32,579 bases of DNA. Source: Rhodovulum euryhalinum (GTDB lineage: Bacteria; Pseudomonadota; Alphaproteobacteria; Rhodobacterales; Rhodobacteraceae). The notes below the pieces were generated by a model that saw only the letters and a program-made list of their open reading frames with translations, was not told the DNA's origin and did no database searches. The stretch is from the NCBI RefSeq assembly GCF_004342445.1, contig NZ_SLWW01000021.1, forward strand, positions 1 through 32,579, read 5' to 3'. The translations under genes and the position numbers were made by a program. Shown piece after piece: positions 9,990 through 26,915 of this stretch. Numbering within the stretch: position 1 is the first letter of the stretch; each line of letters begins with the position of its first letter.

Positions 9990-12809
9990 CTACATTTCGG
10001 GGAACTGACGCCTTCTCTTCAGAGCTGCACCCAGGAACACTGACGACGGCATGCGGTCGGCTTCGGCCCAGCGCGAGACAAAACTTTCAATAGCCGGCGC
10101 AAAGGCCTTTGCAATCAACCGGTCCTCGTCTCCGGGCGTAGATGCCGGGACACTCTCCATTGGCCTCAGCAACAGTTCCGCGAACTCTTCGTGCGGCAGC
10201 TCCTTGGCACCGTCCTTGTTACCAGACAAAGCGATCAACTCTTCCTCTAGTAACTCGCCAGAAAGACCCTGCCAGCGAACCTGATGAACGGCGACCACGT
10301 CCTCGTGCTCTTCGGCTTCCGTTTGGGCCTCCGCGTACAGTCCGTCGAAAATCAGCCTATCGTTGGCCAGCTCTGAGAGATCACGCACAAAGCCGGCTTC
10401 GAAGTCCATAGGAACGAGCGACGGGTCAGCGATCGCCTTTGCGTGGTCGGCCGTGAGGCGCACAATGCTACGACGGCCGAACTCTGGCCAGCGACCGATA
10501 TCCCCTTCGGCGAGCTCAATCTCAAGCGTCCTTCCGCCATGTATCTCGGCCCGCACATCGTATCCGGCAATTGGTGCCATCCCTTTCACAAAGCTGACCA
10601 TATGCCGAAAGTCGAAGCCGCCCGAAACGCGCGTCTGATGAGCGGATGCGAATTGCAGAATATCGTCTTCGGCCGCCCGCGCCTTCTGTGCTTCGCGTAT
10701 GGCTTCAGCGATCTCCTCCTCCGTCTGGTCCATCTTCATACTTGTCGCACGCTCGAGGATGCTTTCCATGTCGATGTAGGACATCAGCTCTCCGAGCACT
10801 TCCGCAGCAAAGGCATCCTTCATCTCGCCGGCAACGCTTGCCATGTCCTGTGCAATCGTACTGACACGATCCAACAACAAAGTGATGGCGCTGTTGTCGA
10901 AGCCATCATCCGACTGCAAATTGATAACTTGAACGCGACGCGTCTGACCATAACGGTACAAGCGGCCAATCCGTTGAACCAGACGTGCCGGGTTCCAGGG
11001 CAAATCGTAGTTCACCATGATATGACAGGCGTCTTGGAGGTTTAGGCCTTCGCCCCCTGCTTCAGTCGAAACCATGACCTGAGCCTCTCGACTGTTGAAG
11101 GCGCGGACATTCCTTATCTTTTCATCCAGCGACATCGAGCCGTTGATCGCGGCAACCTGGACCCCAGGACATGCGTGCGCAATCGCCTCTGCTAGGTAAC
11201 TCTGAGTGGCCCTGTACTCAGTAAACACCAAAAGGTTTTGGTCCTGAGCTAGAAGCGGCGAAACCACGTCATTTAGAAATGTCTGCAGCTTCGCATCCGA
11301 TAGCCGAGCCACGCGGATGAGTTTCAGAACGGCCTGAACCTCGCTTGCTTCATCGGCGAAAAAGGCGCCAACCTCACCGATGGGCCCAGTTTCCGCAAGG
11401 TTGTCGTCCCCTTCGAGTTGCTCGTCTGAAGGTATCACTAGTGCCGAAGCAGCATCGAAATCTTGCAGCCGCTCCAAGCGACGTTCTAGTGCTCGCTCGA
11501 TTGCCGCCACGGAAGATGAAGCGAGTTTGCGATACGTCGTCATGACAAAGCCGATGGCTCGGCCGATCATTCTATCCTTCGCGTCGGCACTGGCGCGATA
11601 CCCCTCGCTCAAATACCTCCGAAGTGCCTTGTCTGCAGTGCGCATTTCGGGCGATGGGATTACCATGTGGCGAAGCGTATCGTGACCGCGAAAAATCAGA
11701 TTGCCTTCTGCATCCGTGACGCGGGTCTTCCGGTTGCGAATGATGATGTCCCCAACCACCTCTGGGTTCATTTCTAGCGTTCGGATTTCAGGCAGGAGGT
11801 CCGGTCGTACCAACTCCAATAGAGCCGCGAAACGACGGGTTTTACCTTGGTGCGGCGTTGCAGTAAGCAATAGAAGCGAATGGGTCCGGTCGCGAAGCTT
11901 GTGCGCGAGCGCGTAGCGTTCCGTCTGCTCACCCGTTTCGGACCGGCCGAGCCGATGCGCCTCGTCAAACACAATAACATCCCAGAAGCCAGCTTCGATG
12001 AGCCGCGCCAAATGCTCGTCGCGCTTCGCGAGATCGAGCGAGATTATGACATTCTCCCTCAGTCGCATCTCATCGGCGTATTCGGGGCGGAAGTCGCGTT
12101 GATAGATCTCGAAGGCACGTCCGAATTTGGCGCGCATCTCATCTTTCCACTGCTTAGTCAGCGACGAAGGGCAGACGATCAGAACGCGCCTGCAGCGGTT
12201 ACGCTGCGAGAGGGCGTGAAGAATAAGACCAACTTCAATGGTCTTGCCAAGCCCAACATCGTCGGCGATCAGCCACCGCGCCTGAGGGGAAGTTACGACC
12301 TTCCGCGCCACATCAAGTTGATGCGGTAGAGGGTCGATGTCGAGACGACCGAATGCTCCGGTGTTCGCATTCCATATTTGAAGTGCCTTAGACAGCATTC
12401 GGAGCCGGAATCGCTCCGCATGGTCCATATGCTGGCCGGTTTGTCGCTTTGCGATCCGCAGCTCGACAGGCATCGCCTGCGCGAGGACACGCCAGTCCAA
12501 CCACCTGGTTTCTCCAGTCTCTGCGAACTGAACGAGAACCTGCTCGAAACCTCCGAGCGAACGCGTTGCAAGTACAACTCCGGTCCCAAGGCTCAGTCCG
12601 CGACCTCGCGGTGGCTTGTGCTGTACTTGCTGTCCAGGCGCATATGCGGGCTTTAGGTCCGATAGCGCCACCCATGCGCGGTGATTGCCTGCCATAGCGA
12701 GTTGAGCCTCGTTCGGCTCGGCCTTTGGCCTCAGATCATGGATCACCCCGCGCGCGTCGTCTTCCAATTTCACCAGAGCGCCCTTTGATGGATACAGCGA
12801 TCTATGCAT
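9990..12809 (-). CDS. RapA/SNF2-type DNA translocase or helicase of a defence operon
   Basis: A 939-residue SF2 protein. The first ~110 residues look like two small SH3/Tudor-like barrels (GALVKLEDDARGVIHDL; GTGVVLATRSLGGFEQVLV), as at the N-terminus of RapA/HepA. The ATPase core follows: Walker A ADDVGLGKT (182-190), DEAH (282-285), LLLTATPHQG (313-322), LLVFTEYRATQSY (526-538), STEAGGEGLNLQDA (581-594), and QRIGRLYRYGQ (612-622). About 320 residues follow with no motif I recognise, rich in acidic helices. SNF2 proteins move on duplex DNA and are core parts of several phage-defence systems, for example DISARM DrmD. None of the DrmA, DrmB or DrmC partners is here. It is the last gene of the operon and its start overlaps the preceding gene by 8 bp, which implies coupled translation. 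Confidence 0.88.
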   Translation of the reverse strand: MHRSLYPSKGALVKLEDDARGVIHDLRPKAEPNEAQLAMAGNHRAWVALSDLKPAYAPGQQVQHKPPRGRGLSLGTGVVLATRSLGGFEQVLVQFAETGETRWLDWRVLAQAMPVELRIAKRQTGQHMDHAERFRLRMLSKALQIWNANTGAFGRLDIDPLPHQLDVARKVVTSPQARWLIADDVGLGKTIEVGLILHALSQRNRCRRVLIVCPSSLTKQWKDEMRAKFGRAFEIYQRDFRPEYADEMRLRENVIISLDLAKRDEHLARLIEAGFWDVIVFDEAHRLGRSETGEQTERYALAHKLRDRTHSLLLLTATPHQGKTRRFAALLELVRPDLLPEIRTLEMNPEVVGDIIIRNRKTRVTDAEGNLIFRGHDTLRHMVIPSPEMRTADKALRRYLSEGYRASADAKDRMIGRAIGFVMTTYRKLASSSVAAIERALERRLERLQDFDAASALVIPSDEQLEGDDNLAETGPIGEVGAFFADEASEVQAVLKLIRVARLSDAKLQTFLNDVVSPLLAQDQNLLVFTEYRATQSYLAEAIAHACPGVQVAAINGSMSLDEKIRNVRAFNSREAQVMVSTEAGGEGLNLQDACHIMVNYDLPWNPARLVQRIGRLYRYGQTRRVQVINLQSDDGFDNSAITLLLDRVSTIAQDMASVAGEMKDAFAAEVLGELMSYIDMESILERATSMKMDQTEEEIAEAIREAQKARAAEDDILQFASAHQTRVSGGFDFRHMVSFVKGMAPIAGYDVRAEIHGGRTLEIELAEGDIGRWPEFGRRSIVRLTADHAKAIADPSLVPMDFEAGFVRDLSELANDRLIFDGLYAEAQTEAEEHEDVVAVHQVRWQGLSGELLEEELIALSGNKDGAKELPHEEFAELLLRPMESVPASTPGDEDRLIAKAFAPAIESFVSRWAEADRMPSSVFLGAALKRRRQFPEM

Positions 12810-14232
12810 CTTTGCCTGCCTCCTTTGCCTCGGCTTCCTCTTTTGCTGCTACCCGCTTGGAGTGTGGAAGTAATGATAGAAAGCCAATATCGCGGCGTCC
12901 ATCTTTTGTTTCGAAACGCCAAAACTGACCTTCACTATCCTCGAGGCGGAAGGAACTGGACGGTTGAACGTCGATAGGCTCCTCGTAATACCAAGACTCA
13001 CTATCAGCTAGTTCAATACTTTCGTAATCGAGACTAAGGAAAGCAGGATAGCTCCAGAACCGTGAGTCTATACGAACACCCTCGCCCGAATAATCTGGCT
13101 GCATCTGAAGCCATTCGTTTCGCCAATCGTCAAAAATCTTTCGCTCGGCCTCCACCCGGCCAACCCGATGAATCAATGCCAGCGCGAGTTTCCAAGAAAG
13201 AGCGCTGCGATAGCTCGATCGTTCTTCTGTTTCCCAAGCGCGCTGCATTCTGTTGAACTTCCGATGAGACCAGAGCCAAGGAGCTTCTCGCCAAAGACAC
13301 TTCAGCTCGCATGCATCTTCCAGCTCTTCGAGGCTGTTTCCAGCTTGCACCAACCTTGAGAGAGCCCTGTAACTCGAAGAGAACGGGAACTCTTCCAAGA
13401 CTGCTTTCAAACGACTTTGAAGCAGGGAACGTTGGTCAAGCTTCATGATGCGCATCTGGCTGACTAGCCTTGCGGCGTAATCGTCCAATAAGTGACCATC
13501 GGTGATGGTCTCTTCGTCAATAGATGGAAAAGGTAGATCTGGATCTTCCTCATATAGATCCAGATCCAAAAGGTCTTCCCATTGGGCGCTTTCAGCTTCG
13601 TTCTCGATCTCTCCTGATTCAAACTCCGGAAACTCATAAAAATCAGCAACTTCAAACGCATCACCATCGGTGCGAGCGCGTTCAATTTCCTCACTTACCT
13701 CATAGGAAAGCGCAGTCTCCCAGAGATCGTCGGCCTGTTCATCGAACACATCATTGTCGCCAATGAGTTCATCATATTCGTCATCCGCTTCAACAAGCCC
13801 GAGATCGGCACTCAATCTCGAAGAATCGGGATTTGGTGGAGCCAAGGCGGGATCCGGGTCCGGCTCATGGTTAGCCGACTCGTCATTCTGCGCTTCAAGC
13901 TCTGTGAATGCCTCGGCTGTCGACTGTTGATTCCCAGAAATGGAAACATCTGATTGTTTTGGCGCTTCGGAGCGCGAGTTGTGAGGAAAATCCTCAGCGA
14001 AAATCTGAGAATCGATAAGATGCAGATCTGGGTGAACGTTGTCTTCGATTGCCTCCAGGGCAGCGGCCGGCGGCTCGGCAAGCTCAGAGCCGGCCACAGC
14101 CTGTGAGGTGCCGGGCAAGTATTCGGCTTCGGGCACATCCCAATCGGACGGCGGGTTCAAATCGGGATGATTGGGCGTCTCCGGAGATACACCCAACTTG
14201 CGCCTCAGCTTAGAAAACAGGCTCTTCATCAT
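12802..14232 (-). CDS. Very acidic two-part protein of unknown function in the defence operon
   Basis: A 476-residue protein I cannot assign to a family. It opens with a short basic amphipathic stretch (MMKSLFSKLRRKLG). Residues about 20-245 are then extremely rich in Asp/Glu, Pro and Ser, look disordered and lack cysteine. Residues about 245-460 look folded, with helical segments, many tryptophans (CLWREAPWLWSHRKF; KIFDDWRNEWLQMQ) and a C-terminal beta-like part (EGQFWRFETKDGRRDIGFLSLL). An acidic half may mimic DNA or bind the basic surface of a partner, which is inference only. It ends 8 bp inside the SNF2 gene and starts 54 bp after mcrC. The gene is visibly more AT-rich than its neighbours, which points to a separate origin. 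It may be the specificity or adaptor subunit for the SNF2 motor. Confidence 0.8.
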   Translation of the reverse strand: MMKSLFSKLRRKLGVSPETPNHPDLNPPSDWDVPEAEYLPGTSQAVAGSELAEPPAAALEAIEDNVHPDLHLIDSQIFAEDFPHNSRSEAPKQSDVSISGNQQSTAEAFTELEAQNDESANHEPDPDPALAPPNPDSSRLSADLGLVEADDEYDELIGDNDVFDEQADDLWETALSYEVSEEIERARTDGDAFEVADFYEFPEFESGEIENEAESAQWEDLLDLDLYEEDPDLPFPSIDEETITDGHLLDDYAARLVSQMRIMKLDQRSLLQSRLKAVLEEFPFSSSYRALSRLVQAGNSLEELEDACELKCLWREAPWLWSHRKFNRMQRAWETEERSSYRSALSWKLALALIHRVGRVEAERKIFDDWRNEWLQMQPDYSGEGVRIDSRFWSYPAFLSLDYESIELADSESWYYEEPIDVQPSSSFRLEDSEGQFWRFETKDGRRDIGFLSLLPHSKRVAAKEEAEAKEAGKDA

Positions 14233-14286
14233 TCAGCCGTTTTCGAAAAGGGCAGCGCGCGCAAAGTACTCACCTGTCGCATCTGC

Positions 14287-15618
14287 TCAAACCACTTCAT
14301 GATCTACTGCATCGACGAGCGATGCACCGAAGACCTGAGAATTGACGACCAGCTGTCGCAAACTTTCTCTTTGGCCTCCCTGTGTGCCTGCGAGATCATG
14401 CGTGGCCACGATCAGCGTTTCATTCGCTCCCCTTGTCGCGATGGAGTACCGGCAACGGATCGGATCGGGCGGCAAGTCGCCATGATGTGGGTACAGCAGC
14501 ACAACGTTTGGGCAGTCGTAGAGCCTGCCGTAAGCCATCAGCTGGTAGACGTCCGCTTGGCTGACGCCTTGCTTCGGATCGTCGACCCTCGGCGTCATGC
14601 GCTTCCACTTGGTGTCGATGATTAGCACGATCTTCTCGCCAAGCCGGACGATGAGGTCCGGCCTTGTGCGGAAGCGCCCGGTCTCGCCTTCGTAGAGACA
14701 GTCCCGATGGCCGCCTTGCGACGACACGCGAAAGCCCGTGCCGGCCAGAGATCGCGACAGGATCCGTTCGATGTATGCTTCGAACAAGACGTTCATCTCG
14801 AAGAGCAACGCGTGACCGTCGATGCTCCCCGAGCTCGTCTGCTGGTGCCGGTCCGATAGAAAAAGGCGCGCGAAAGACAGAAGATCCCGCCAACGACGAT
14901 TGGTCCGGTCCAGGACGATCCGGTCCCAGCGGAGGGCGTTCGGAGAAACGTCAGCCACGTCGGCGTACACGAAGCTCAGTTCGCGCAGCGCGCGTTGGTT
15001 GTCCGGTGAGGCAGACAGGCGCGACAGCTTGCGGACCGCCGCCCGCATGACCTGGTTCAGAGCGATGTCAGGCGAAAGGGCATCGAAACGGCATGCGAGC
15101 TTTTGTGGCGAGACCGCGAGCGTTGAGAACTGCCGTGTCACGTCCAGGCGTCCCCGAAGCGCAGGCAAGTCGTCTTCGTGTTCGAGGTAGTGGCGCGGCA
15201 TCCCCTGCCGGACCGCGTCGATGAGCTTCGCACAGAATAGACGGATCAGAAGTTCGAGCACGGTCTCGCGCTGCCAGCCGAGTTGCGTCATCGCGCCGGC
15301 TTCGATTGGCAGATCGTAGGTCACCGCAAGCATGTGGATGAGGCGCTGCCGGAGCACCGCATCCGACACCCCGCTCTCGCCGCCCCCCTCGATCTTTGGC
15401 AGGATCTCCAGCTGGCAGCCGGGGGTGGCAATAACGCCGACGGCGCCAAGTGCGCGGAGACCCTTCCGCCCGTGCTCCAGCACGCCCTCGCCCTCGCGCC
15501 CCGAGAAGGTCGAGGTCCTCGCAACCCCGGCAAGCCGGTCTGCTTGCGTCTCCGGGATTTCGCTGTCGCCGGACCCGTAGGCGATACGCTCCCACTCGCG
15601 GATCGTGCGGCGGATCAT
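14287..15618 (-). CDS. mcrC: McrC-type nuclease subunit
   Basis: A 443-residue protein of the McrC family, the endonuclease partner of McrB. The N-terminal part includes the segment VGVIATPGCQLEILPKI, typical of McrC. The middle contains PRHYLEHEDDLPALRGRLDV, also a family signature. The C-terminal PD-(D/E)XK core is present with Glu279 (LFEAYIE), Asp321 in RTRPDLIV, and DTKW (Asp335, Lys337) after LII, followed by DVYQLMAYG. All catalytic residues are intact, so it should cut DNA when driven by McrB. The ATG overlaps the mcrB stop in an ATGA arrangement, so the two are made together. By family knowledge McrBC cuts DNA with modified cytosines; this pair's target may differ because the McrB N-terminus differs. 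Confidence 0.93.
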   Translation of the reverse strand: MIRRTIREWERIAYGSGDSEIPETQADRLAGVARTSTFSGREGEGVLEHGRKGLRALGAVGVIATPGCQLEILPKIEGGGESGVSDAVLRQRLIHMLAVTYDLPIEAGAMTQLGWQRETVLELLIRLFCAKLIDAVRQGMPRHYLEHEDDLPALRGRLDVTRQFSTLAVSPQKLACRFDALSPDIALNQVMRAAVRKLSRLSASPDNQRALRELSFVYADVADVSPNALRWDRIVLDRTNRRWRDLLSFARLFLSDRHQQTSSGSIDGHALLFEMNVLFEAYIERILSRSLAGTGFRVSSQGGHRDCLYEGETGRFRTRPDLIVRLGEKIVLIIDTKWKRMTPRVDDPKQGVSQADVYQLMAYGRLYDCPNVVLLYPHHGDLPPDPIRCRYSIATRGANETLIVATHDLAGTQGGQRESLRQLVVNSQVFGASLVDAVDHEVV

Positions 15619-18089
15619 GGCCCGACCAACTTGCTGTAGTCGAAGCCTTCATCGACGGATCGAACCTGCCAGCGAAACCGGGCGACAGCATCGCCGTCCT
15701 CGAGGCCCGGAGGCGGATTCAGGATCGCACGCTTGAGAAAGCCACCGGTGATCGAGCTTTCACCCGGTTCCAGGTCGCCGAGAACCGCCGCAATCTTGGC
15801 CCAGTCTTCAAAAAAGTACTCCGCGATGAGCGGGATGACCTTGTGGCGCATGACCTCGTCGACATCGGCTTGCGAACGGCACGCGGTGAAGTAGGCATGA
15901 CCGATTTGATGCTCCCGGTCGTAAAGGTACTCGATCCGCTCGTTGATCTTGGTGAGCAGTTGCGGCAGGTCGATCCCGCATTTCTGACCAGCGTCTTCGA
16001 GGATGGATGCATCAGGCATCATTTCACGGAAGGTGAACCGCCGCCGGAGGGCAGTGTCGAGAAGCGCGACCGACCGGTCGGCGGTGTTCATTGTGCCGAG
16101 GATGTGCAGGTTAGACGGCACGCCGAATTCGTCCCCGGAATAGGGCAAGCGGACCCGTACCGCATTGGGCTGGTTGAGCCGCTTGTCGGCTTCAAGGAGT
16201 GTGATCAGTTCACCGAAGACCTTGGAGATGTTCGCCCGGTTGATCTCGTCGATAATCAGAACGAACTGATCGGGCTCGTCACCCCCGTCGTTCCTCTGAC
16301 TGTTCATGTAACGCTCGAGCGCCGGAATATTGAGCTCGCTGTCGTAGAGCAGATAAATCGACTGCTGCATGAAACCGCGGCTGTAGATCTCGCTGACCGC
16401 TACCCCGTCTCGATCCACCCAGAGCCATCGCACCGTGCGCCGGTGGGCATAGCCCCCTTCCGGCCGTGGCTTGAACTCGTAGTCGCCGGCGAACTCCCCA
16501 ATGGCACGGAACTGCTGGTTTCCCTTCGACACGATCACGATGTCGCCTTGCCGGACCCAGTTCCGGAATCGGAAGGGCATCTGAACCCATCCGGATCTTG
16601 CATCTATGTCGCCGCCGCCGTCTCGGTGGTCCTTGCAGGCCTCAAAGATCGCCTCACGGCTGGCGTACTTCTCATCGCTCCAGTCGATGTCGTCGAAGCC
16701 GAGGAGCGTGTAGCCGCCCTCTATCGATTCCTCGAACAAGTGCGCGTCCTCGGGGTTGTTCGCTTCGCCGATCGACATCTTGAAGACCTGGCGGCCCTCC
16801 AGCCTGATCATGTCATCGCCAGATGAGCGCCCACGGCTGGTCTCCGCGCGCTTCGCGATCCGCCTGAATATCCCGTGGACCGTTTCGAGCCGGAAGCCGG
16901 CCGACTCCGCCTCACCTTCGCCGTCCGCTCCGGTCATGGGCTGCCGACCTTCGACGAAATCCTCGTAGGACATCGACTGGTGGAATGTGACGAACTCGAT
17001 GCGCCCGGCCGCCACGAGCCTCTGGTAGACCGCCATGAGCTCGGCCCGATCCTGCGGCACCGGCTCGCCACACAGCCGCACTGCCTCCGCCGCTGTGGTG
17101 AAGGTCTTCCCGGTCCCTGGCGGCCCATAAAGGATGAGGTTGGTTGCGGACGCCGATATCGTCGTGCTCGCTTGGTCCATTGTGTCCGCTTCCGAGTTAG
17201 ATCCAAGTTGGTAGGTAAATGTTGTTGAGCTGCTAGGATTCGGTTCTGAAATCGCGGGCGGCGGGACCTTCGCAAGCTGCTGAAGCTTCTCGCCACCGAG
17301 AGTTTGGCAGATATTTGGGAAAGCGTTCTTCAGCCCCATTGCGCTGGCCAGGTCTCCAGCACGTACGGTCACAGTCTTTAGGCGTTTCTCCCGAGCCGGC
17401 TCGATAAAGTAATTAAGTGCGCATAGCCTGATACGATCAGCGCCTGAAATAAGGTGCTCGTATCGTTCGGGCGCTTGAACAGGCTCATCCGCCTGATCAA
17501 CGATAATGAAGCCGGAGTTGTGAAGCCTGGCAGCCGCGTCAGCTTTTTGGCCCCAACCACCATTCAGCTCAGTCTTTTTCAGGAGGTATCCAACGAGCGG
17601 CTTACTGGGGAAGACGCGATTCTCACGGTCCTGGCTGGATCGCACCCAGTAGTCCCGCGGATCGCCGAAGTGGCGGAATATTTCGCTTTCTTCGCCGTTC
17701 TTACTGTAGCGATCAAAGGCATCCATCGCCTCTTCGATCTCTCGCCTCGTGAAAAGGCCCCGCGCCTCGACCTGTGTGGGAAGGCTCACCGTTGCGGGTT
17801 GCCAATGACTGCCATTGCTATTTCCGTCGATAACCACGCCCGCTGCACGGCTCTGACTGTTGAACACATGATCGACGCTGAAACGAAAAAGTGCCGGATT
17901 CTCATCGGGGACGAGAATACCCTGTTCAACCAAACGGTCTCGTTCGGGCCTGTCGCGCTTCTTAATTGGGGATCCTTCCCGCATCGCGGTTGACCCCTGG
18001 CGAACAACGAAGCCAGATGGCACTGGCTTGCCGAAGGCGAGAGCCTGCTCTTTCTTGATTTGTAGCCAGCCGTCTTCAGGTTTTGTCAT
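15615..18089 (-). CDS. mcrB: McrB-like AAA+ GTPase with DUF4357 domain and inserted PUA/EVE-like module
   Basis: An 824-residue motor and sensor subunit. Residues ~24-97 match DUF4357 (SGFVVRQGSTA; FRFSVDHVFNSQS). Residues ~110-275 form a second region with a winged-helix look (VTVRAGDLASAMGLKN). The AAA+ GTPase follows with Walker A GPPGTGKT (322-329), the clade motif SYEDFVEG (374-381), Walker B LIIDEINR (611-618), the McrB-type NTAD (668-671), and LRRRF (681-685). Between SYEDFVEG and Walker B lies an insert of about 150 residues (430-585) containing NWVRQGDIVIVSKGNQ and AIGEFAGDYEF, which resembles a PUA/EVE-type fold, a class that reads modified bases. In E. coli McrB the reader is N-terminal. 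The 5' third of the gene is less GC-rich than the rest. It lies 9 bp after the nuclease-helicase gene and overlaps mcrC by 4 bp. Confidence 0.92.
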   Translation of the reverse strand: MTKPEDGWLQIKKEQALAFGKPVPSGFVVRQGSTAMREGSPIKKRDRPERDRLVEQGILVPDENPALFRFSVDHVFNSQSRAAGVVIDGNSNGSHWQPATVSLPTQVEARGLFTRREIEEAMDAFDRYSKNGEESEIFRHFGDPRDYWVRSSQDRENRVFPSKPLVGYLLKKTELNGGWGQKADAAARLHNSGFIIVDQADEPVQAPERYEHLISGADRIRLCALNYFIEPAREKRLKTVTVRAGDLASAMGLKNAFPNICQTLGGEKLQQLAKVPPPAISEPNPSSSTTFTYQLGSNSEADTMDQASTTISASATNLILYGPPGTGKTFTTAAEAVRLCGEPVPQDRAELMAVYQRLVAAGRIEFVTFHQSMSYEDFVEGRQPMTGADGEGEAESAGFRLETVHGIFRRIAKRAETSRGRSSGDDMIRLEGRQVFKMSIGEANNPEDAHLFEESIEGGYTLLGFDDIDWSDEKYASREAIFEACKDHRDGGGDIDARSGWVQMPFRFRNWVRQGDIVIVSKGNQQFRAIGEFAGDYEFKPRPEGGYAHRRTVRWLWVDRDGVAVSEIYSRGFMQQSIYLLYDSELNIPALERYMNSQRNDGGDEPDQFVLIIDEINRANISKVFGELITLLEADKRLNQPNAVRVRLPYSGDEFGVPSNLHILGTMNTADRSVALLDTALRRRFTFREMMPDASILEDAGQKCGIDLPQLLTKINERIEYLYDREHQIGHAYFTACRSQADVDEVMRHKVIPLIAEYFFEDWAKIAAVLGDLEPGESSITGGFLKRAILNPPPGLEDGDAVARFRWQVRSVDEGFDYSKLVGP

Positions 18090-18098
18090 CTTTTTTCT

Positions 18099-21000
18099 TT
18101 AGACTCTGAAATCCACTGCATTCAACGCACAGAGCGTATTTACTAGCCGCATCTGCTCGACCGTCTCACACTTCGCCTCGCGCAGACGCGGCGCGCCGAA
18201 GACCAGCGCCAGGCTTTTTGCGCGCGAGACAGCCACGTTGATGCGGTTGAGGGAGAACAGGAAGTCCATCCCGCGCGGCGTTTCCTCGGCTGATGAGGCC
18301 GTCATGGAGACGAGGCAGACCGGCGCCTCCTGTCCCTGGAACTTGTCGACCGTGCCGACGCGGATACCGGGCGACAGCGCGTCGCGAAGGGCGTTCACCT
18401 GCGCGTTGTAGGGGGCGACGACGATGATGTCTGTCTCGCGCATGGCGCGACCAGTGCCGTCCTTCTCCGTCCATTCGCCTTGCAGAAGATCGGTGACCGC
18501 GGCCTGGATCGCGGCGACCTCCTCGGTCGAGACCTGCGCATTGCCCTCATGCGCGACCGGCACCCAGAAGGCCCCCGCCTCGGAGAACCGGGTGCCTCTG
18601 ACGAGCTGGCGTGCCGTATTGGGGTGGCTGGTCAGCCGACCCTCGTAGACCTGCTCCGAGATGAAGCGGCAGACCTCAGGATGCATGCGCCGCGAGACAG
18701 GAAGGAAGATGCCGCGGTCCGGCGGGATCGTCGCGTGATCGCCCAGCATCCAGTCGAGGCATGAGAGGTTCGCAGGCTCGGGGTGCGCCCCCTGGATGAC
18801 CTGCGGCAGCTGACGCGGATCGCCGACCAGCACGATGTTGCGCGCAGCGCGCCCCATGGCGACCATATTTGCGAGGCCGACTTGTCCAGCCTCGTCAACG
18901 AAGAGCCAGTCCAGAGACTGTTCGAGTTCCGGGCGCGAGAAGAAGAACGCAGTTCCGCCGACGACATGGGCCTCTGTCAGCGCAGGGTCGTCGTTGGACG
19001 TGGCACGAGTGATGCCGGCGAAGCCCTCAGGATAGCCGTCTTCCTCACCGCTCACCTTATGAGCGAGCTCGGCGTTTTCCAATGTGATGTCCGGGTCGTC
19101 GTCCTCCAGCGCATGAAGACAGCCCATCAGCACATTGCGAATGGCCTCGTGGCTGTTGGAGGCCACGCCGACGCGGTGACCGTTCCGTACGAGAGACAAG
19201 ATCGCCCGCGCCGTGACATAGGTCTTGCCGGTGCCTGGCGGCCCTTGGATCGGCAGCACGGTGCCGTCCATCGCGCCAACGGCCGCGATCGTCCCAGCCA
19301 CAGGATCGGCTCCCTCCAGCAGGTCGGATTTCGGGCTGGTCGTGAGGCGCGGGGCTGCGCGGGACAGGAGGTCGTCGATGGCGGTGAACCGACGCGGCCC
19401 GCATTGATCCGCGATGACGTCACGCAGTGCCACGGCAATAACGCCGGTATTAAGCGGCCAGTCTGGGTGCAGCGTGAGACGCTCGCCCAGCAGGTGCGCT
19501 TTCTTTGGTCCCGCCTTAAGAGTGATCTCTCGGCTCGTCCGGTCGAGAGCCGCAATGTCAATGGTGGCAGGCGGCCCGTCGATGACTGGCACGGTCGCCT
19601 TCTTGCCGCCCCGCAGCTTCGTCTCCTGGGGCGGGAACCGATATGTGCGCGCCATGGATCGCTTCTCCGGTTCCGCCGGCCCGAGAGCCTCGAGCCCGGC
19701 AAGCGCGTCGAGGTCGTCGATCAACTCGTCCTCGTCCTTACCAGCGCTGTCGAACACGGCCCATTGCGCGGGTTTCGCCTCGCGTTTGTGGAACAGACCG
19801 AGGTTGAAAAGCATCTGCTGGCGCTCGTCGGGCAGCCCGGACGCGGCAAGCATGGCACGCAGCTCTGAGGCGTCGGCATCCTCCGCCTCCTCTTTGTCGC
19901 CCGCATCGTTGGCCAGACGCGGCCAGGGGCGTTCGGGCCGGACCCGAACCAGCCAATCTTTGAGTTCCTCCGTGGAGATGCAGTCGATGCGGTTGTACTC
20001 CTCGATCTCGTCGAGGATCTGCTGCTCGCCCGTCTCGCGCCAGCGCTCGTAGGCGACCACCGACCCACCTGCCGTCTTCACCGCGCCGTCGCGCTTTCGG
20101 TCATAGAAGGCTTCCATCGACTTGATGGAATAGTTCGCCTCCGAGCAGATCAGTCCGCCGCGCACAACGGCGTAGAGATCGACGAACCGCCGCTCGCGCA
20201 GGAGCCGGTCGAGGAACGCCTCACCGATCCCGTATTTCGTGGTCAGCCGACGCAGCGCGGTGACCTCGTAAGGCGCATAGTGGTAGATCCGCGCATCCGG
20301 GTAGGCGTCAAGCCGCGCCCGGAAGAACGCCAATAGCTCCGACAGGGCCTTCGCCTCGGCCTCATGGTCATGGGCCCAGTAGGCGTAGAACCGCCCGTCG
20401 CACCACACGCCGTGCAGGTATTCGAGGCCGCCCTCGTAGTGAGGATCGCCCTCGATGTCGTAGAAGATGTCGCCAGGCGTCGGCTCGGGCAGCAAGTCGA
20501 AGCCCTTGCCCGGCTCGGGTGCGCGCAGTTCGTAAGCAGGTCCCCCCGTCTTGCGGGCATGTTGAAGCCGGGCCTGGGTGACGAGCTTTGCCCGCGTGGT
20601 CTCGGCCATACCGCGAACGGGGTGGTCGAGGCGAGCCAGCGCCTCCATCGTCGTGATCCCCGCCGCTTCGAGCTTCTTCACCTGTCCGCGGCTGATACCC
20701 GCCACATTGAAGAGGCTGTCCTCGGCGACCCACCCGCTTTCACAATGATCGGCCCAGCGGCATAGCGCGCAGTCGGCGCAGGGGACGGGGCGCGTGGGCG
20801 AAGGGTCAGCCACGAACGCCTCGAGCCGTGCCCGCGCGCCGCGTGCATAATGGGCGTAGTCGGCGAGCCGCAGCGTCGCGCGCTCGCCGGAGCCGAGTTC
20901 GACATGTGCGAATTCGGGCGCGACCCCCTGAATCTCGGTCAAGAGGTCGGAGTAGAGCACGAGCTGGAGGACGTGTTTCGGATGCGGCCGACGCTTCAGC

Positions 21001-21401
21001 TTGGTGTCGGCGACCTCGTAGCTGAAGGGCCCGAGCGCCGAGGGGCGCTCCACGCGCTCTAGGAAGTCCGACCAGCCGCCCCAGTTGCCCGACAGGAACG
21101 CGCCCTGAAAGACCACCTCGGCACCTTCGTTCAACGCCACGCGCGTGGCCTCCGCATCGCGCGCCAGATTGCCGCGCGGGATCTCGACCACGGACCTGCC
21201 AGAAACCTTCAAACGCTCCAGATGCGCGGCCTCATGCGCGTCGCCCTGCTTCTGCAGAAGCGCAGCATCCTCGCTGTCCCCGCCCGGTTCTGGCCCTTCG
21301 CCGCGCAGGCGCATCAGATCAAGTGTCGTCGCATGGGCACAGCCCATGAACCGCATCAGGTCGCTCGCCGAGAAGAGGATGTTGCCGCCGATTTCCCGCA
21401 T
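18099..21401 (-). CDS. TM0106-type RecB-like nuclease / RNase H-like / SF1 helicase fusion
   Basis: A 1100-residue protein with three modules. Residues ~1-225 are a RecB/Cas4-like nuclease: Asp112, then YEVADTK (Asp132, Lys134), and probable iron-sulphur cysteines at 21, 208, 211, 214 and 220. Residues ~300-490 are an RNase H-like exonuclease fold with DIFYDIEGDP (Asp315, Glu317), YHYAPYE and YNRIDCISTEEL (Asp473). Residues ~690-1090 are a UPF1/Dna2-like SF1 helicase: GPPGTGKT (720-727), FVDEAGQ (834-840), GDPRQLPQ (860-867), TVDKFQGQE (1017-1025), and NVAVSRAK (1055-1062). All motifs look intact. I chose the ATG at 21401; a TTG at 21413 is open in frame but overlaps the likely AAGGAG ribosome site. 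It precedes mcrB by 9 bp, so it may process ends made by McrBC. Confidence 0.9.
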   Translation of the reverse strand: MREIGGNILFSASDLMRFMGCAHATTLDLMRLRGEGPEPGGDSEDAALLQKQGDAHEAAHLERLKVSGRSVVEIPRGNLARDAEATRVALNEGAEVVFQGAFLSGNWGGWSDFLERVERPSALGPFSYEVADTKLKRRPHPKHVLQLVLYSDLLTEIQGVAPEFAHVELGSGERATLRLADYAHYARGARARLEAFVADPSPTRPVPCADCALCRWADHCESGWVAEDSLFNVAGISRGQVKKLEAAGITTMEALARLDHPVRGMAETTRAKLVTQARLQHARKTGGPAYELRAPEPGKGFDLLPEPTPGDIFYDIEGDPHYEGGLEYLHGVWCDGRFYAYWAHDHEAEAKALSELLAFFRARLDAYPDARIYHYAPYEVTALRRLTTKYGIGEAFLDRLLRERRFVDLYAVVRGGLICSEANYSIKSMEAFYDRKRDGAVKTAGGSVVAYERWRETGEQQILDEIEEYNRIDCISTEELKDWLVRVRPERPWPRLANDAGDKEEAEDADASELRAMLAASGLPDERQQMLFNLGLFHKREAKPAQWAVFDSAGKDEDELIDDLDALAGLEALGPAEPEKRSMARTYRFPPQETKLRGGKKATVPVIDGPPATIDIAALDRTSREITLKAGPKKAHLLGERLTLHPDWPLNTGVIAVALRDVIADQCGPRRFTAIDDLLSRAAPRLTTSPKSDLLEGADPVAGTIAAVGAMDGTVLPIQGPPGTGKTYVTARAILSLVRNGHRVGVASNSHEAIRNVLMGCLHALEDDDPDITLENAELAHKVSGEEDGYPEGFAGITRATSNDDPALTEAHVVGGTAFFFSRPELEQSLDWLFVDEAGQVGLANMVAMGRAARNIVLVGDPRQLPQVIQGAHPEPANLSCLDWMLGDHATIPPDRGIFLPVSRRMHPEVCRFISEQVYEGRLTSHPNTARQLVRGTRFSEAGAFWVPVAHEGNAQVSTEEVAAIQAAVTDLLQGEWTEKDGTGRAMRETDIIVVAPYNAQVNALRDALSPGIRVGTVDKFQGQEAPVCLVSMTASSAEETPRGMDFLFSLNRINVAVSRAKSLALVFGAPRLREAKCETVEQMRLVNTLCALNAVDFRV

Positions 21402-21545
21402 GGGCTCCTTCAATCGTCAATGAGCGCAACCCGAACCGCGGAAAACGTCTCCTGATTGCAGCTTCTTAAATCACCCCTGTGGGTGTCAATAACTGTCGGC
21501 CCTTACGAAGGTCCGCCGCCTGGAGGGCGTGCGAACAGCCACGCC

Positions 21546-21830
21546 TCAAGCCTGCTTGGTATTCCCGCCACGGACGATCCGGAGGCTCTCCGGAGAAATC
21601 AGCGAAGCTCGCTTTCCATTCGCCCCCATCCACAGAGAGAAGCCTTTCTCGATCAGTTCCGCAGCTTCATCGAGGGTCTTCACATAGACGGTGTGTTCGG
21701 CGTGATGCTTGGCGTTGCCATGGGCAGGGTCGCCAAGGCGGTAACCTTTCGACGTGAAGTCTGGTTCTTCCACAACGCCTTCACGTGGAGAAACTCGTTC
21801 GATCCTGATCACACGCCCACTCATGGCCAT
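21546..21830 (-). CDS. 94-residue protein of unknown function heading the defence operon
   Basis: A small protein with an even, soluble composition and a believable fold: GRVIRIERVSPREGVVEEP at the start, a middle with several histidines (HGNAKHHAEHTVYV), a helix TLDEAAELIEKGF, and a C-terminal strand ISPESLRIVRGG. I do not recognise a family. A GGGAG lies 4 bases before the ATG at 21830; the next ATG, 6 bases on, is an alternative. It is divergent from the WYL regulator across about 130 bp and lies 144 bp upstream of the nuclease-helicase on the same strand, so it is likely the first gene of that transcript. The size and place would suit a small regulator, an inhibitor or a sensor subunit. 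That is inference only. Confidence 0.65.
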   Translation of the reverse strand: MAMSGRVIRIERVSPREGVVEEPDFTSKGYRLGDPAHGNAKHHAEHTVYVKTLDEAAELIEKGFSLWMGANGKRASLISPESLRIVRGGNTKQA

Positions 21831-21961
21831 CCATCTCCCTTTCGAAGCTTCTGTCTGCCTTTCGCCAGTTCCTCTGCAGCGGTGAGAGAATCAGGTCGAC
21901 AGGCAACAGATACCTTCTTAGCCTCCAAGGGTGTCAAAAATTGGCAGGCTGCGAGGCGCGC
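21831..21961. promoter_or_regulatory. Divergent control region between the 94-residue gene and the WYL regulator
   Basis: This gap of about 130 bp must hold the promoters for both directions. TTTGACAC, a fair -35-like match on the minus strand, lies near 21935, but no convincing -10 sits at the usual distance. The palindrome GAAGCTTC at 21844-21851 and two copies of CCTTTCG (about 21838 and 21859) are the only repeats I see, and both are short. The WYL protein encoded alongside is the obvious candidate to bind here. The operator itself is not identifiable by eye. Confidence 0.35.
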
Positions 21962-22936
21962 ATGTCCTTTTCCAAGGCTCAGGATCTGATCCGGCTCGCA
22001 CAGTTGGCTGCGGCAAGACGCTGCGGGATCAGCCTCGAGGAGATCGCGCTGGAATTCGGAGTGTCCCACCGGACAGCGCAGCGGATGACCGACGCGCTGG
22101 AGGAAACCTTTGGAAACGTCTTGGTAGAGGATGGCGAGGACCGCAAACGACGCTGGCGGCTGATCGATGCTGGCCTCGACCGCCTGCAACTTCGCCATGA
22201 AACAGGTGTAGAGGCATTGGAGATCGCCGTTCGCGGGGCGGAGGCCGAGGGTCGGCTACGACATGCACGAGCCTTGGCTGATCTGCGCGAGGGGCTGCTG
22301 GCTCAGGCGCCCTCCCGGTCCCGTATCGAGACCGACGCAGAGGCGGTCCTGGCCGCCATGGGACAGGTCACGCGCCCCGGCCCGAAAGTCAGCGTCGAGA
22401 CAGACGTGCTCGATGCCATCATCGAGGCCCTGCGCGGCCCGTTTCGCCTGAGTGTGCGCTACAACCAGGACGACGCAAACCGCATCCTGGAACCACATGG
22501 CGTCTTGCTGGGCCACCGGACATACCTAGCGGCACGCGACCCCGCCAAAGCAGACGAGGTACGCAATTTCCGCATCGACCTGATCCGCGCGGCGGAAGTC
22601 CTCGACGAGAGCTTCCAGCTTCAGGAGGGTTTCAGCATCGTGGATTACGCTGCACGGTCCTTCGGGGTCTGGCAGGATCCCGAACAATACGGCGAGGTGA
22701 TCTGGCGCTTCGCGCCTGAGGCAGCCGAGCGCGCCGCTGGCTTTCGCTTTCATCCGCGGCAAGTGCTTGAGCCGCAAGACGACGGCAGCCTTGTCGTGCG
22801 TTTCGAGGCAGCAGGCTGGCTGGAGATGACCTGGCACCTCTACCAGTGGGGGAACAAGGTCGAGGTCATTGCCCCGGAGGCGCTCCGGGCGATGGTGGAC
22901 GGATACCGCCGGTCCGATTTCGGCGCGATGCCGTGA
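21962..22936 (+). CDS. WYL-domain transcriptional regulator
   Basis: A 324-residue regulator of the type often found beside phage-defence genes. Residues ~5-70 are a winged helix-turn-helix (ISLEEIALEFGVSHRTAQRM). Residues ~158-222 are the WYL domain (FRLSVRY, LEPHGVLLGHRTYLAARDP). Residues ~244-313 are the C-terminal WCX extension (EVIWRFAPEAAERAAG to NKVEVIAPEAL). The name-giving Trp is Thr here (RTYLA), as in some other members, so ligand contacts may differ. WYL proteins commonly act as repressors released by nucleic-acid ligands. I chose the ATG at 21962; a TTG 21 bases upstream is also in frame. It is divergent from the defence operon and 26 bp upstream of the HEPN gene, so it probably controls both. 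Confidence 0.9.
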   Translation: MSFSKAQDLIRLAQLAAARRCGISLEEIALEFGVSHRTAQRMTDALEETFGNVLVEDGEDRKRRWRLIDAGLDRLQLRHETGVEALEIAVRGAEAEGRLRHARALADLREGLLAQAPSRSRIETDAEAVLAAMGQVTRPGPKVSVETDVLDAIIEALRGPFRLSVRYNQDDANRILEPHGVLLGHRTYLAARDPAKADEVRNFRIDLIRAAEVLDESFQLQEGFSIVDYAARSFGVWQDPEQYGEVIWRFAPEAAERAAGFRFHPRQVLEPQDDGSLVVRFEAAGWLEMTWHLYQWGNKVEVIAPEALRAMVDGYRRSDFGAMP

Positions 22937-22962
22937 ACGAGTATTAGAAACGGAGGAATTCG

Positions 22963-23628
22963 ATGACGGACAGCCTGTCGTTTAGCGCCTTAAAGGAGAA
23001 GCAACGCGCGATCCGTGCAGGCTTCCCCGAGACGATGGGCCTGCGCGTACACCGCTCCATCAGCTGGATCGGACGAGCCGAGTCGTGCGGCGACGATCAC
23101 GATGCGCGCTTCATCTTCCTCTGGATTGCCTTCAACGCAGCCTATGCGGACGAGCGCGAATTCCAGTGGGTTGCACCCGGGGAAAGGGCTGCGATAGTCG
23201 ATTACTTTGGCAAGCTGGTGGCGCGGGATGAAGAGCGACGCGTTTACAAGGCGCTATGGCAACGGTTCTCAGGTCCAGTTCGGATGCTCATGGAGAACCG
23301 CTTCGTCTTCAACCCATTCTGGCAGCATCAGAACGGCATAGACGGATTCGAGGATTGGGAGGAAAGGTTCCGGACCTCCTCGCGCAGCTTTGCACAGGCG
23401 TTCCAGGCCGGCGACAGCGTTCGCGTTCTCAGCTTCGTCTTCGACCGGCTCTACGTGCTGCGCAATCAGCTGGTGCATGGCGGATCGACGTGGAACAGCG
23501 GCGTAAACCGAGCACAGGTCCGTGACGGCGCCGCGATACTCGGCTTCCTCCTCCCGGTCTTCGTGGATCTGATGATGGACAACCCGAAGGAGGATTGGGG
23601 GCGTCCCTTCTACCCGGTGGTCGAGTAG
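22963..23628 (+). CDS. HEPN-domain protein, candidate RNase or toxin
   Basis: A 221-residue, mainly alpha-helical protein. The key motif is RNQLVHGG (Arg167 to His172), which fits the R-x4-6-H signature of HEPN ribonucleases with the common polar residue after Arg. An earlier conserved-looking stretch, RFIFLWIAFNAAYADE (residues 49-64), is the usual first helix pair of this group. HEPN proteins in defence islands often cleave tRNA or mRNA and cause growth arrest. Some are inactive or act as partners, so the activity is inferred. GGAGG stands 7 bases before the ATG, which is a strong ribosome site. It follows the WYL gene by 26 bp, surely in one transcript. No nucleotidyltransferase (MNT) antitoxin is next to it, so any restraint would come from WYL or another partner. 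Confidence 0.78.
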   Translation: MTDSLSFSALKEKQRAIRAGFPETMGLRVHRSISWIGRAESCGDDHDARFIFLWIAFNAAYADEREFQWVAPGERAAIVDYFGKLVARDEERRVYKALWQRFSGPVRMLMENRFVFNPFWQHQNGIDGFEDWEERFRTSSRSFAQAFQAGDSVRVLSFVFDRLYVLRNQLVHGGSTWNSGVNRAQVRDGAAILGFLLPVFVDLMMDNPKEDWGRPFYPVVE

Positions 23629-23676
23629 CCAGACTGTACACAGTTCATACGCTCAATAGTTCGATCAGCGGCGACT

Positions 23677-25716
23677 CTAGTTCTGTGTGAGTTCCGCACA
23701 CCCCGCTGCAAGCAAAGCTTCGGCACAGGCGTCCATCTCATCCGGGGAACGGGTCGGATCATCAGCCTCGCCCCGCGGCACGAAGAGCACGAGACCGGCC
23801 CGGGCCCGGGTAAGCAGCACGCGATAGCCATTCAGCCGAAAACGCTGTTTCTCAGTGTCTCGTGCAATCTGCCATCGAGGCGCACGCATCATCCTCGGCA
23901 GCCAACCCTGATCAGTCCAGATCAGGTCTCCACCCCAACACAGGCACGCATAATCCAACTCGAGCCCCTGGCACCCGAACTCGCTCATCGGGGTCTCAAG
24001 CGCACCAGCGCTGCGGAAATCAGTGAAGGGCTTCAAGAACCAATGGCCGATGGGATTCAACTCATTTGATCGCGGTGAAGGCGGCACTCCCTCGCCGACG
24101 AGGCGGACGGCCCCCGAGCTCGCCAGCAGGCCGACGGTTCGACCGCCCCGTCGCCGTTGACGGAGCCATTGCTTCGCGACGGAGATGTCTCGCGTCATCA
24201 AGGCCGGCGGGGCATCCATTCTGGAGGCCAGGGCCTTCGCCTCCACGATGTCGCCATCCAGAAGACGCGCCACCCACTGCGCATGAAGGGGGTTTCGATA
24301 CGCCCGGATGGCGTTTGCCAGGTGCAGGGCTGACTCCCGTCGAACCTCGACACCGCCGAGCCCGCCCTCAGCGAACATGCCGGATCCTGGAACGTCCGGC
24401 CCGCCGTCAAGCGCCTGGGGCGCGGCGACCACACGCCATCGACTGCCTGCGCTCTGAGCTGAGCGCAGCGTCTCCCCCCAGAGAGCGAGGCCGCCTTCGC
24501 CCCGATTGATCTCTTGGCCAGGACCAACCAGACAGACGAGGCAGGCCCAGTCCAAGCGATCGAGGATCTCGAGAAAGAGTTCGGGCTCGGAGCTCGGCCG
24601 TCCCATAAGCTCCTTGCCAACCTCGGCATCCCAGGCGCGCTGCGCCTCATCGAAGACGATCACATGCTCCGGCGGCGGAGCGCCGTCCGTGTGCTCCTTC
24701 AAATAGCCAAGGAGGTTCTGAATGGCTGCGTCAGCGAAACGTCGCGCTTCGGTCTTCGTCATCGCGCCACGCGCAGCGCTGTCCTCCGCCAGGGCTTCGG
24801 TCAGCACATGGACCAATGGGCGGTTACCCGAGAGAAGCGCTGCGGGACGGGTCCCCGATCTGCTCTTGAGTGCGAGGTCCAATCCGAGCAGCGTCTTGCC
24901 GGCGCCAGGTGCGCCGGTCACGAAGCACACGACCTTGGCACGGAACGCCTCTGCGTCGGCGGCGATTTCCTGCAGCGCTGCTGCCGCAGCCTGCAACTCG
25001 GCATCGGCTGCGTCACCGCGCCCAATGTCTGCGATCTCGTGCCCGGCATAGAGCGCCTGCGCTGCCTCCACGATGTTGGGAGTCGGCCGGTACGGTGAGT
25101 AGTCGAACCCGTGCGCGTCAATCGCGGCAGCATTCGGATCGACATGGCTTTGCAGAACCAGAAACGCGTCTGCGAGCGTTGTCGCATTGGCTTCCATCAA
25201 CGTACCGACGCCTTCGACCAAGGTCGTCGCCGGCGGCCTCGCCCGCGCCCGCTCAGCGCATAGGATCGGCAGGATCAGCCGCTGCTGTGAGGCCTCGTGG
25301 AAATCGCTGAGCGATTGAGCATAACGTTCCGTCTGGACGCGGTCGGCGCTCTGAAACGCCGTCGCATTGATCTTGAATTCGATCACGCCGACGACGCCGG
25401 GCGCGAGCACAACCGCATCGATCCGTTTTCCGAGCCGCAGCAGCGGGATTTCGAGGAGGAGCTGCCAGTCGTCGCAGAGCGAGCCTGACTTTGCGAAGCT
25501 TTCCTTCAGGATCTCGATTTCGCGCGCCCAGGCGCGAAGTTGTTCGGCCTCGGCGGCGGCGTGGAAGGCGACGTGGCGCGACGATAGCCTGCCGATGATC
25601 GTGTCATCGTCAGTGACGCGAAACTCTGAAACCGGCGCAGCATAAAATGAACGGCCTGTGCGACGGCCGGACGTTTGCGGCCGGTCAGTCTCGTCCAGGT
25701 CCAGGGATGAGCTCAT
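23677..25716 (-). CDS. DUF2075-type helicase with N-terminal nuclease-like domain
   Basis: About 679 residues. The N-terminal ~200 residues look like a PD-(D/E)XK fold of the NERD kind: Glu89 in LLLEIP, RIDAVVLAPGVVGVIEFK with Asp100, Glu113 and Lys115. A P-loop motor follows, with Walker A GAPGAGKT (268-275), Walker B VIVFDEAQRAWD (352-363), a later segment VGPGQEINRGEGG, and the C-terminal motif RLNGYRVLLTRARAGLV typical of SF1-like DUF2075 proteins. These often sit in defence islands and near restriction genes. The start is taken as the ATG at 25716; a GTG at 25731 is possible but is too close to its ribosome site. It converges on the HEPN gene (48 bp apart) and has its own upstream region, so it is probably a separate unit of the island. 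Confidence 0.87.
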   Translation of the reverse strand: MSSSLDLDETDRPQTSGRRTGRSFYAAPVSEFRVTDDDTIIGRLSSRHVAFHAAAEAEQLRAWAREIEILKESFAKSGSLCDDWQLLLEIPLLRLGKRIDAVVLAPGVVGVIEFKINATAFQSADRVQTERYAQSLSDFHEASQQRLILPILCAERARARPPATTLVEGVGTLMEANATTLADAFLVLQSHVDPNAAAIDAHGFDYSPYRPTPNIVEAAQALYAGHEIADIGRGDAADAELQAAAAALQEIAADAEAFRAKVVCFVTGAPGAGKTLLGLDLALKSRSGTRPAALLSGNRPLVHVLTEALAEDSAARGAMTKTEARRFADAAIQNLLGYLKEHTDGAPPPEHVIVFDEAQRAWDAEVGKELMGRPSSEPELFLEILDRLDWACLVCLVGPGQEINRGEGGLALWGETLRSAQSAGSRWRVVAAPQALDGGPDVPGSGMFAEGGLGGVEVRRESALHLANAIRAYRNPLHAQWVARLLDGDIVEAKALASRMDAPPALMTRDISVAKQWLRQRRRGGRTVGLLASSGAVRLVGEGVPPSPRSNELNPIGHWFLKPFTDFRSAGALETPMSEFGCQGLELDYACLCWGGDLIWTDQGWLPRMMRAPRWQIARDTEKQRFRLNGYRVLLTRARAGLVLFVPRGEADDPTRSPDEMDACAEALLAAGCAELTQN

Positions 25717-25811
25717 TGTGCGCCACGCCACTTCCTAAAAACTTATGAAGTCATAGGACTTAGCATAGTTCGCAAGCGGGCGGACTCACAAGAGCAGCGA
25801 TCTGCGGAAGG

Positions 25812-26057: not shown

Positions 26058-26223
26058 GGGTTTTCTCCATGGTCTCGAGCCGTTCGACCAGTCGGCCGGC
26101 GCGCGCGCCGGAGCGGCGCAGGGAAAGCAGGAACAGAAGGATCGTGAGTGCGATGACGCCGTAGCGGAGCGCCGTACGCGCCCATGCCGGTCCGGCGAGC
26201 GTGGCGAGGAGCCCGCCGATCAC
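25966..26223 (-). CDS. Rz-like inner-membrane spanin (or holin-like) protein
   Basis: An 85-residue protein with one N-terminal membrane helix (YGVIALTILLFLLSL) followed by a basic linker and a likely coiled coil (GRLVERLETMEKTHEAQRRM), then a charged tail AARRPRSRDDRAERLRDG that recurs in alphaproteobacterial phage lysis regions. The start is a GTG that overlaps the endolysin stop (GTGA), so translation is coupled. One membrane span plus a periplasmic coiled coil is the form of an i-spanin. A class of small holins is the alternative. The Rz1-like gene begins inside its 3' part. Confidence 0.68.
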   Translation of the reverse strand: MIGGLLATLAGPAWARTALRYGVIALTILLFLLSLRRSGARAGRLVERLETMEKTHEAQRRMLEAAARRPRSRDDRAERLRDGQF

Positions 26224-26894: not shown

Positions 26895-26915
26895 GCGATC
26901 CTCCAGAAACAAGAA

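Follow-up and report, generated by a model that had tools for sequence, protein, structure and literature searches.

We analyzed a 32,579-nucleotide stretch of Rhodovulum euryhalinum DNA (contig NZ_SLWW01000021.1 of assembly GCF_004342445.1, forward strand; hereafter the window, which is the entire contig 21 of its assembly), focusing on eight genes around a nuclease-helicase of the TM0106 family. All eight reading frames are open: five closely packed genes on the minus strand, a WYL regulator and a HEPN-type gene on the plus strand, and a DUF2075/SLFN-g3 helicase gene on the minus strand. These genes, and the segments delimited by the comparisons below, are as follows.

9990–12809, minus strand: SNF2, a RapA-like SNF2 ATPase (SNF2-rel_dom, Helicase_C)
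12802–14232, minus strand: acidic partner protein, with a low-confidence acidic N-terminal half and a helical C-terminal domain
14254–14338, minus strand: scar, a vestigial copy of the ~85 last conserved TM0106 bases
14287–15618, minus strand: McrC nuclease (PF10117, 231 bits), its last residues scar-derived
14341–18122, minus strand: inserted McrBC cassette (TM0106 tail, McrB, and McrC up to codon 426)
15615–18089, minus strand: McrB (AAA_5), with an N-terminal DUF4357 region, Walker motifs, and an NxxD motif
18099–21413, minus strand: TM0106, 1104 residues, with a RecB-like nuclease, RNase_H_2, and an SF1 (SMUBP-2/UPF1/DNA2-like) helicase
18123–23628: constant block, from the HEPN stop codon to TM0106 codon 1097, i.e., the limits of homology with other loci
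21941–22936, plus strand: WYL/WCX regulator, divergent from TM0106 across a 527-bp gap
22963–23628, plus strand: HEPN-type protein with an RNxxxH motif, starting 26 bp after WYL
23629–25817: separate 2.2-kb insertion with the DUF2075/SLFN-g3 gene, missing at the matching site in loci L011, L107, and L102
23677–25731, minus strand: DUF2075/SLFN-g3 helicase (PADLOC candidate PDC-S41, 688 bits)

From TM0106 to SNF2, the packed genes are spaced by a 9-bp gap, a 4-bp overlap, a 54-bp gap, and an 8-bp overlap, and G+C content across genes ranges from 51.5% (acidic) to 65.9% (TM0106). The catalytic motifs looked for are all present, and neither the acidic nor the HEPN protein had a match in Pfam, PADLOC, NCBIfam, or PHROGs. 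A preliminary description of this DNA had proposed the gene identities, these spacings, and an operon-like array: the identities agree with Pfam, PADLOC, and NCBIfam matches, the spacings with the coordinates, and the array is supported by the tight same-strand packing. Its statement that methyltransferases are absent also holds for the eight genes, none of which was recognized as one in a family-library scan. The “six minus-strand genes in a row” it reported are not contiguous, however, because the plus-strand WYL-HEPN pair separates the DUF2075 gene from the other five.

The constant block consists of TM0106, WYL, and HEPN. TM0106 scored 276 bits against TIGR03491 (NCBIfam cut-off, 97.45), with further matches to RNase_H_2 and AAA_11/AAA_12, while the regulator scored 33.8 against PF13280 (cut-off, 21.8) and 49.9 against WCX (cut-off, 23.9). 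The HEPN-type protein carries the Rx4-6H motif, whose residues R167, N168, and H172 do not vary among 28 of 28 relatives, and its predicted structure is all-helical (mean predicted local distance difference test, pLDDT, 84.7), with no PDB match at E ≤ 0.001 and none by sequence at E-values as high as 1. Across the family, TM0106 was present in 37 of 394 genomes, and 34 loci including the window were analyzed, G415, G117, and G434 (all fragments) being left out; genes in relatives’ loci are longest open reading frame (ORF) calls, among which antisense shadows occur. Both WYL and HEPN were found within ~7 kb of TM0106 in 22 of the 34 loci (tblastn; fragments only for L110), WYL alone in 2, HEPN alone in 3, and neither in 7, one of which lies at a contig end and another of which has a truncated TM0106. 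The WYL-HEPN pair, previously taken for a flank, belongs with TM0106.

Homology between the window and other loci begins at the HEPN stop and, whatever genes lie behind TM0106 (hereafter cargo), is lost at reverse-complement positions 14453–14459 (window 18127–18121), ~25 bases before the TM0106 stop, in comparison with 8 of 9 other loci; the exception is L009, whose TM0106 is damaged and where window homology ends at 14405. Overall, homology ended at one TM0106 codon in 11 of 12 DNA comparisons. Two other McrBC carriers, L010 and L102, lose homology at this shared codon and match the window again inside McrB. Away from the window, L011 (acidic-SNF2) and L107 (Tiamat) share 90.6% identity across a 7.9-kb stretch that runs from phage-type genes to HEPN, WYL, and TM0106, until homology is lost at L011 base 8557, and L110 (McrBC) and L180 (Tiamat) part from L011 at the same base. 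TM0106 alleles more than 90% alike carry different cargo, and alleles 95.9% identical in protein pass from homology to none at the breakpoint. The TM0106 residues after EQMRLVNTLCAL vary and tend to track the cargo: PEFGD-like tails occur with one McrB type, KSYQPESTR with another, TALAEIKG with a SACS gene, and PLIK with DUF4357-Tiamat.

This cargo is highly diverse. It could be judged in 32 of the 34 loci, the other two ending too soon, and comprised McrBC in 10 (in two of these after an intervening HEPN), Tiamat-type genes in 3, a metallophosphatase in 3 (two with SMC), a SACS-type ATPase with a DrmD-like SNF2 in 2, and a PsyrT-like helicase, a set with a weakly UvrD-like gene, and an ABC-type pair in 1 each; acidic-SNF2 was also among the cargo types behind TM0106 in other loci. 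On a tree of 35 TM0106 proteins, in which support is weak for 14 of the 32 inner branches, cargo changed at least 16 times, and 9 times among the 24 proteins with recognized cargo. Spacing from TM0106 to same-strand cargo was often only a few bases, e.g., −4 in L011, L100, and L131, 0 in L103 and L182, and +9 in the window. The locus thus behaves as a defense hotspot or modular superoperon, i.e., one place with alternating defense systems. DUF4357 was considered as a general adapter between TM0106 and cargo, and rejected, as only 4 of 38 first-downstream proteins carry it. Free-standing DUF4357 proteins, resembling the N-terminus of the window McrB, lie between TM0106 and the Tiamat-type gene in L107 (7879–8283) and L180 (12312–12638).

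Traces of past exchange were sought with a DNA profile (nhmmer) of the last 150 TM0106 bases up to the breakpoint codon, run over the collected loci. The window contains a copy at 14338–14254 (minus strand; E = 0.03), L010 has one at the same place (E = 8.1e-8), and a third, in G019, lies at a different cargo junction, between SACS-SNF2 and McrB (L144 3654–3745; E = 4.6e-8). No further TM0106 3′-end copy of L010 or G019 strength was detected elsewhere in the loci then searched; a weak match in L187 (E = 0.0047), which begins partway along the profile and falls inside a gene annotated as AAA, was discounted as probably fortuitous. Other rows of the output repeat DNA of these loci under different identifiers. 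In the window and L010, the last 15 McrC residues (VFGASLVDAVDHEVV in the window) align with TM0106 VFGAPRLREAKCETV and replace the different C-terminus seen in L102 and L144. Downstream of McrC and before the acidic gene, EQMRQVSTLRAL scored 37, the top non-self match in all six window frames (runner-up, 26). This score was not reached in the McrC–acidic gap by any of 2000 peptide shuffles, nor the DNA score (52 of 87 columns identical) by any of 5000 DNA shuffles. The vestigial TM0106 3′ end in this gap therefore indicates that McrBC entered a pre-existing TM0106/acidic junction, between TM0106 and an older acidic-SNF2 cassette.

Judged from fourfold sites, cassettes are in most comparisons more closely related than their carrier blocks. 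Raw identities, uncorrected for gene-specific rates and codon bias, between the window and L011 were 41.6% for TM0106 and 32.6% for HEPN vs 73.7% for the acidic gene and 68.4% for SNF2, and between the window and G019 71.0% for TM0106 and 51.1% for HEPN vs 82.6% for McrB and 83.3% for McrC. For the window and L010, the values were 81.0% (acidic), 79.1% (SNF2), 62.0% (TM0106), 58.6% (McrC), and 53.4% (McrB). If the scar reflects one shared event, this mixed kinship implies that acidic-SNF2 was exchanged again later or evolves more slowly.

Both cassettes of the window also occur apart. The acidic protein has an isoelectric point of 4.26 and 22.7% D+E; its model (mean pLDDT 50.5) reaches block means of 79–89 only at residues 251–310 and has no PDB fold match, and its family profile matches tetratricopeptide repeat (TPR) structures at N-terminal positions, the window protein itself being without a Pfam TPR hit. 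The best PADLOC hits of the SNF2 protein were BrxHI/BrxHII and DrmD. A genome-collection scan for SNF2 relatives yielded 47 loci, and gene models covered 47 loci as well, namely the window, L006, and 45 scanned loci (absent are L034, with a broken SNF2 frame, and L047). An acidic profile produced 34 hits among 3273 mechanical ORFs, placing an acidic family member next to SNF2 in 29 of 30 loci scoring >500 bits (exception, L014) and in 1 of 17 lower-scoring loci (L035; three of the 17 are at contig ends), a count that is no independent test because the profile was seeded and iterated on the same loci. From this co-occurrence, acidic-SNF2 looks like a conserved two-gene unit. Among SNF2 relatives, TM0106 lies in front of it only in the window, L009, L010, and L011. 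Scans of chosen neighbors placed the pair near Mrr, HsdM, HsdS, and HsdR (L018), HsdM and HsdR (L022), N6/N4 methylases (L019, L027, L034, and L042), BrxC (L030), GmrSD (L026), and McrBC (L021). In L015, L016, L018, L019, L022, L026, L027, L030, L034, and L042, the SNF2 gene sits near 9.8–12.9 kb. Immediately upstream of the pair, five loci of the Alcanivorax group (L015, L016, L018, L024, and L034) carry a relative of the window HEPN (41–46%), and L022 has one downstream (33%). Relatives of the acidic protein were found neither in viral contigs (pattern scan) nor on plasmids. In L008, TM0106 gives way immediately to a 149-residue acidic remnant (6588–7037) and then to an ABC-transporter-like pair, the remnant being a possible trace of a lost cassette.

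The McrBC cassette is an adjacent McrB (Walker and NxxD motifs) and McrC (PD-(D/E)xK nuclease), with motifs MNTAD, GPPGTGKT, RPD, and IIDTKWK, and its McrB matches solved McrB chains at E = 2.3e-56. Scores below the NCBIfam cut-offs for E. coli-type McrB (116.9 vs 637 bits) and McrC (105 vs 338 bits) exclude the E. coli equivalog and mark it as a distant member. McrB bodies match among the window (15615–18089), L010, L102, L103, and L109, and their N-terminal parts differ, so that the reader domain seems to be exchanged between loci too. The G019 McrB is 94% identical to that of the window, yet lies behind different cargo. McrC was detected in 36 of the 394 family genomes, together with TM0106 in 16, and within 20 kb of it on one contig in 11.

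The preliminary description viewed the five packed genes as one acting unit, and these distributions do not bear this out: TM0106 occurs with acidic-SNF2 and without McrBC in L009 and L011, with McrBC and without acidic-SNF2 in, e.g., L103, L109, L110, and L116, and acidic-SNF2 is mostly found without TM0106. The full five-gene order recurred in one other genome, at L010 (on the same contig as L101/G372, Salinihabitans). The proviso that the TM0106-McrBC trio and the acidic-SNF2 pair might rarely be neighbors elsewhere, and so be separate modules, was thus largely borne out, yet the modules meet at a recurring point and do not simply lie side by side.

A different arrangement is seen in L121, L123, and L124 (TM0106 60–63%), where WYL, metallophosphatase, SMC, and TM0106 all run in one direction, which we consider an older form of the operon. 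HEPN follows TM0106 in L123, L124, and L125, with McrBC behind HEPN in L124 and L125, so that cargo apparently attaches to the operon end irrespective of the final gene. In L012, WYL is followed by metallophosphatase-SMC and acidic-SNF2 on the opposite strand, without TM0106. In eukaryotes, Mre11-Rad50 acts with Dna2 in end resection. A putative Mre11/Rad50-like pair, metallophosphatase and SMC, precedes the Dna2-like TM0106 in L121, L123, and L124 and shares its strand; this pair is absent from the window.

The surroundings of the block may point to mobility. The DUF2075 gene, previously described as a flank, is the single PDC-S41 gene of an independent 2.2-kb insertion between phage genes and HEPN. 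Beyond it lie phage tail and peptidase genes, the tail genes (25812–32393) being of gene-transfer-agent type and adjoining the block. The same phage genes flank the block in L011, L107, L117, and viral contig L172, and partly in L103 and L112; in certain genomes of the genus, the peptidase gene recurs as several strong copies. On the opposite flank, an insertion sequence-type integrase gene is followed by TctC, TctA, and a Kdo-transferase gene. IMG/VR pattern scans returned two TM0106 loci and five HEPN loci, with both in UViG_2838952725; TM0106 was not found in phage records at E ≤ 1e-20. The constant block may travel on prophages. Among plasmids, 64 records matched TM0106, and the nine inspected span Rhodobacterales, Hyphomicrobiales, and Sphingomonadales, five of them typed as conjugative. 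A divergent WYL is annotated beside TM0106 in eight of the nine and a HEPN nearby in three, and the cargo comprises McrBC-like pairs (3), DUF3883 (Tiamat-like; 1), an exonuclease-AAA pair (1), other genes (2), or nothing evident (2).

Taken together, we consider it probable that the locus is a modular defense operon, in which interchangeable cassettes are fused to the 3′ end of a constant WYL-HEPN/TM0106 block and two of them, an older acidic-SNF2 and a newer McrBC, are stacked in the window. The modularity, breakpoint, cargo-linked tails, and scars at two kinds of cargo–cargo junction are read from sequence comparisons. The most likely route would be recombination in the TM0106 3′ end, leaving a duplicate of 85–92 bases when a new cassette enters before an old one. 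Most likely, too, the array would form one transcript controlled by WYL, and its products would cooperate in defense: McrBC would cut modified phage DNA, TM0106 would resect or degrade the resulting ends, the SNF2 motor would clear or remodel bound DNA while its acidic partner holds or recruits it, and HEPN would serve as an RNase of last resort.

Several observations weigh against this modular operon. The scars support only two independent events, and that of the window is weak on its own; loci with a single cargo show no distal scar, and no second TM0106 3′ copy was detected in 26 plasmid records by a search whose sensitivity would not suffice for a scar as degraded as that of the window. 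The breakpoint is also the last conserved TM0106 codon, so that sharing this position is not in itself proof of a special site. No recognized cargo, i.e., no match to the queries used or to the proteins selected for scanning, was found in 11 of the 32 evaluable loci, including five TM0106 of 35–43% identity without WYL and HEPN, and in L123–L125 TM0106 is followed by HEPN and not by cargo. Finally, McrB and McrC are no closer than TM0106 between the window and L010, where only acidic-SNF2 is closer, and the fourfold-site values are uncorrected.

The modular reading leaves undecided whether cargo and TM0106 cooperate, and hence overlaps with a passive hotspot, to which we give an even chance: the block would be a landing site that is simply tolerated, carried by prophages, plasmids, and islands, with cargo acting alone and at most sharing a promoter. 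The variety of the cargo, which includes systems working alone elsewhere (McrBC, Tiamat), the frequency of McrBC and acidic-SNF2 without TM0106, and the 11 loci without recognized cargo are all consistent with passive landing, whereas the many cargo genes starting on the same strand within a few bases of the TM0106 stop suggest selection for coupling. It appears improbable that the 3′-end copies are chance likenesses or remains of ordinary tandem duplication, and the breakpoint simply the end of TM0106 conservation: the modest E-value of the window copy and the conserved codon at the breakpoint would fit, but the L010 and G019 copies (E < 1e-7) lie exactly at cargo–cargo junctions and are unmatched in the loci searched, the window copy beat all shuffles, and nearly identical alleles lose homology abruptly at the breakpoint base. 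One obligate five-gene composite system, despite the tight packing and the identical gene order in L010, is very improbable given L011 without McrBC, the several loci with TM0106-McrBC only, and a scar marking McrBC as an insertion.

In line with the preliminary description, no named system with this composition was identified: the combination is absent from family libraries, and the open-access literature searched holds no description of the locus or of the widespread acidic-SNF2 module. Likewise, the accessible parts of PMC12839542, PMC12458937, PMC11090510, PMC3710099, PMC9122601, and PMC12629846 contain no description of the constant block, docking point, or acidic-SNF2 pair. Among the closest parallels are the CoCoNuT superoperons, which, in the portion of PMC11090510 available, line up McrBC-type and other restriction systems unidirectionally downstream of a regulator and include a HEPN RNase layer. 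The window likewise strings restriction genes one way with a HEPN layer, but its McrB has the canonical NxxD (MNTAD) and not the NxD variant of CoCoNuT, which excludes membership, its regulator is WYL and not RtcR/CARF, its front gene is TM0106, and one-codon cargo exchange with scars does not appear in that portion of PMC11090510. In Pseudomonas, genomic-island hotspots alternate defense systems at a fixed place, with Tiamat and type IV restriction the commonest at GI-Hotspot 9 (available sections of PMC12629846); in the window, the boundary is instead the 3′ end of a nuclease-helicase gene, with closely spaced cargo and gene-end scars. The SNF2 helicases of BREX, BREX-related, and DISARM systems (BrxHII, DrmD) share the RapA-like motor, as far as the accessible text of PMC12839542 goes, but the window SNF2 scores 315.5 against a DrmD cut-off of 610 (NCBIfam) and has the acidic protein as its constant partner. 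BrxC, PglX, and PglZ of BREX are not among the eight genes. A DISARM locus is defined by DrmA, DrmB, DrmC, and a methyltransferase, none of which is among the eight genes either.

These results raise the question of whether unrelated systems gather behind one nuclease-helicase for shared regulation only, or because they share an end-processing motor. In a more speculative and rather unlikely extension, TM0106 would be the shared DNA-end-processing motor of many defense systems and its gene 3′ end a dedicated docking site, where incoming cassettes capture the 3′ end, become linked to the motor gene, and displace earlier cassettes to positions downstream of a duplicated gene end, making the operon a cassette array that records past immunity. 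The addition of systems to defense islands is rarely visible; here, exchange at a defined point can be read from junctions, cargo-linked tails, and scars.

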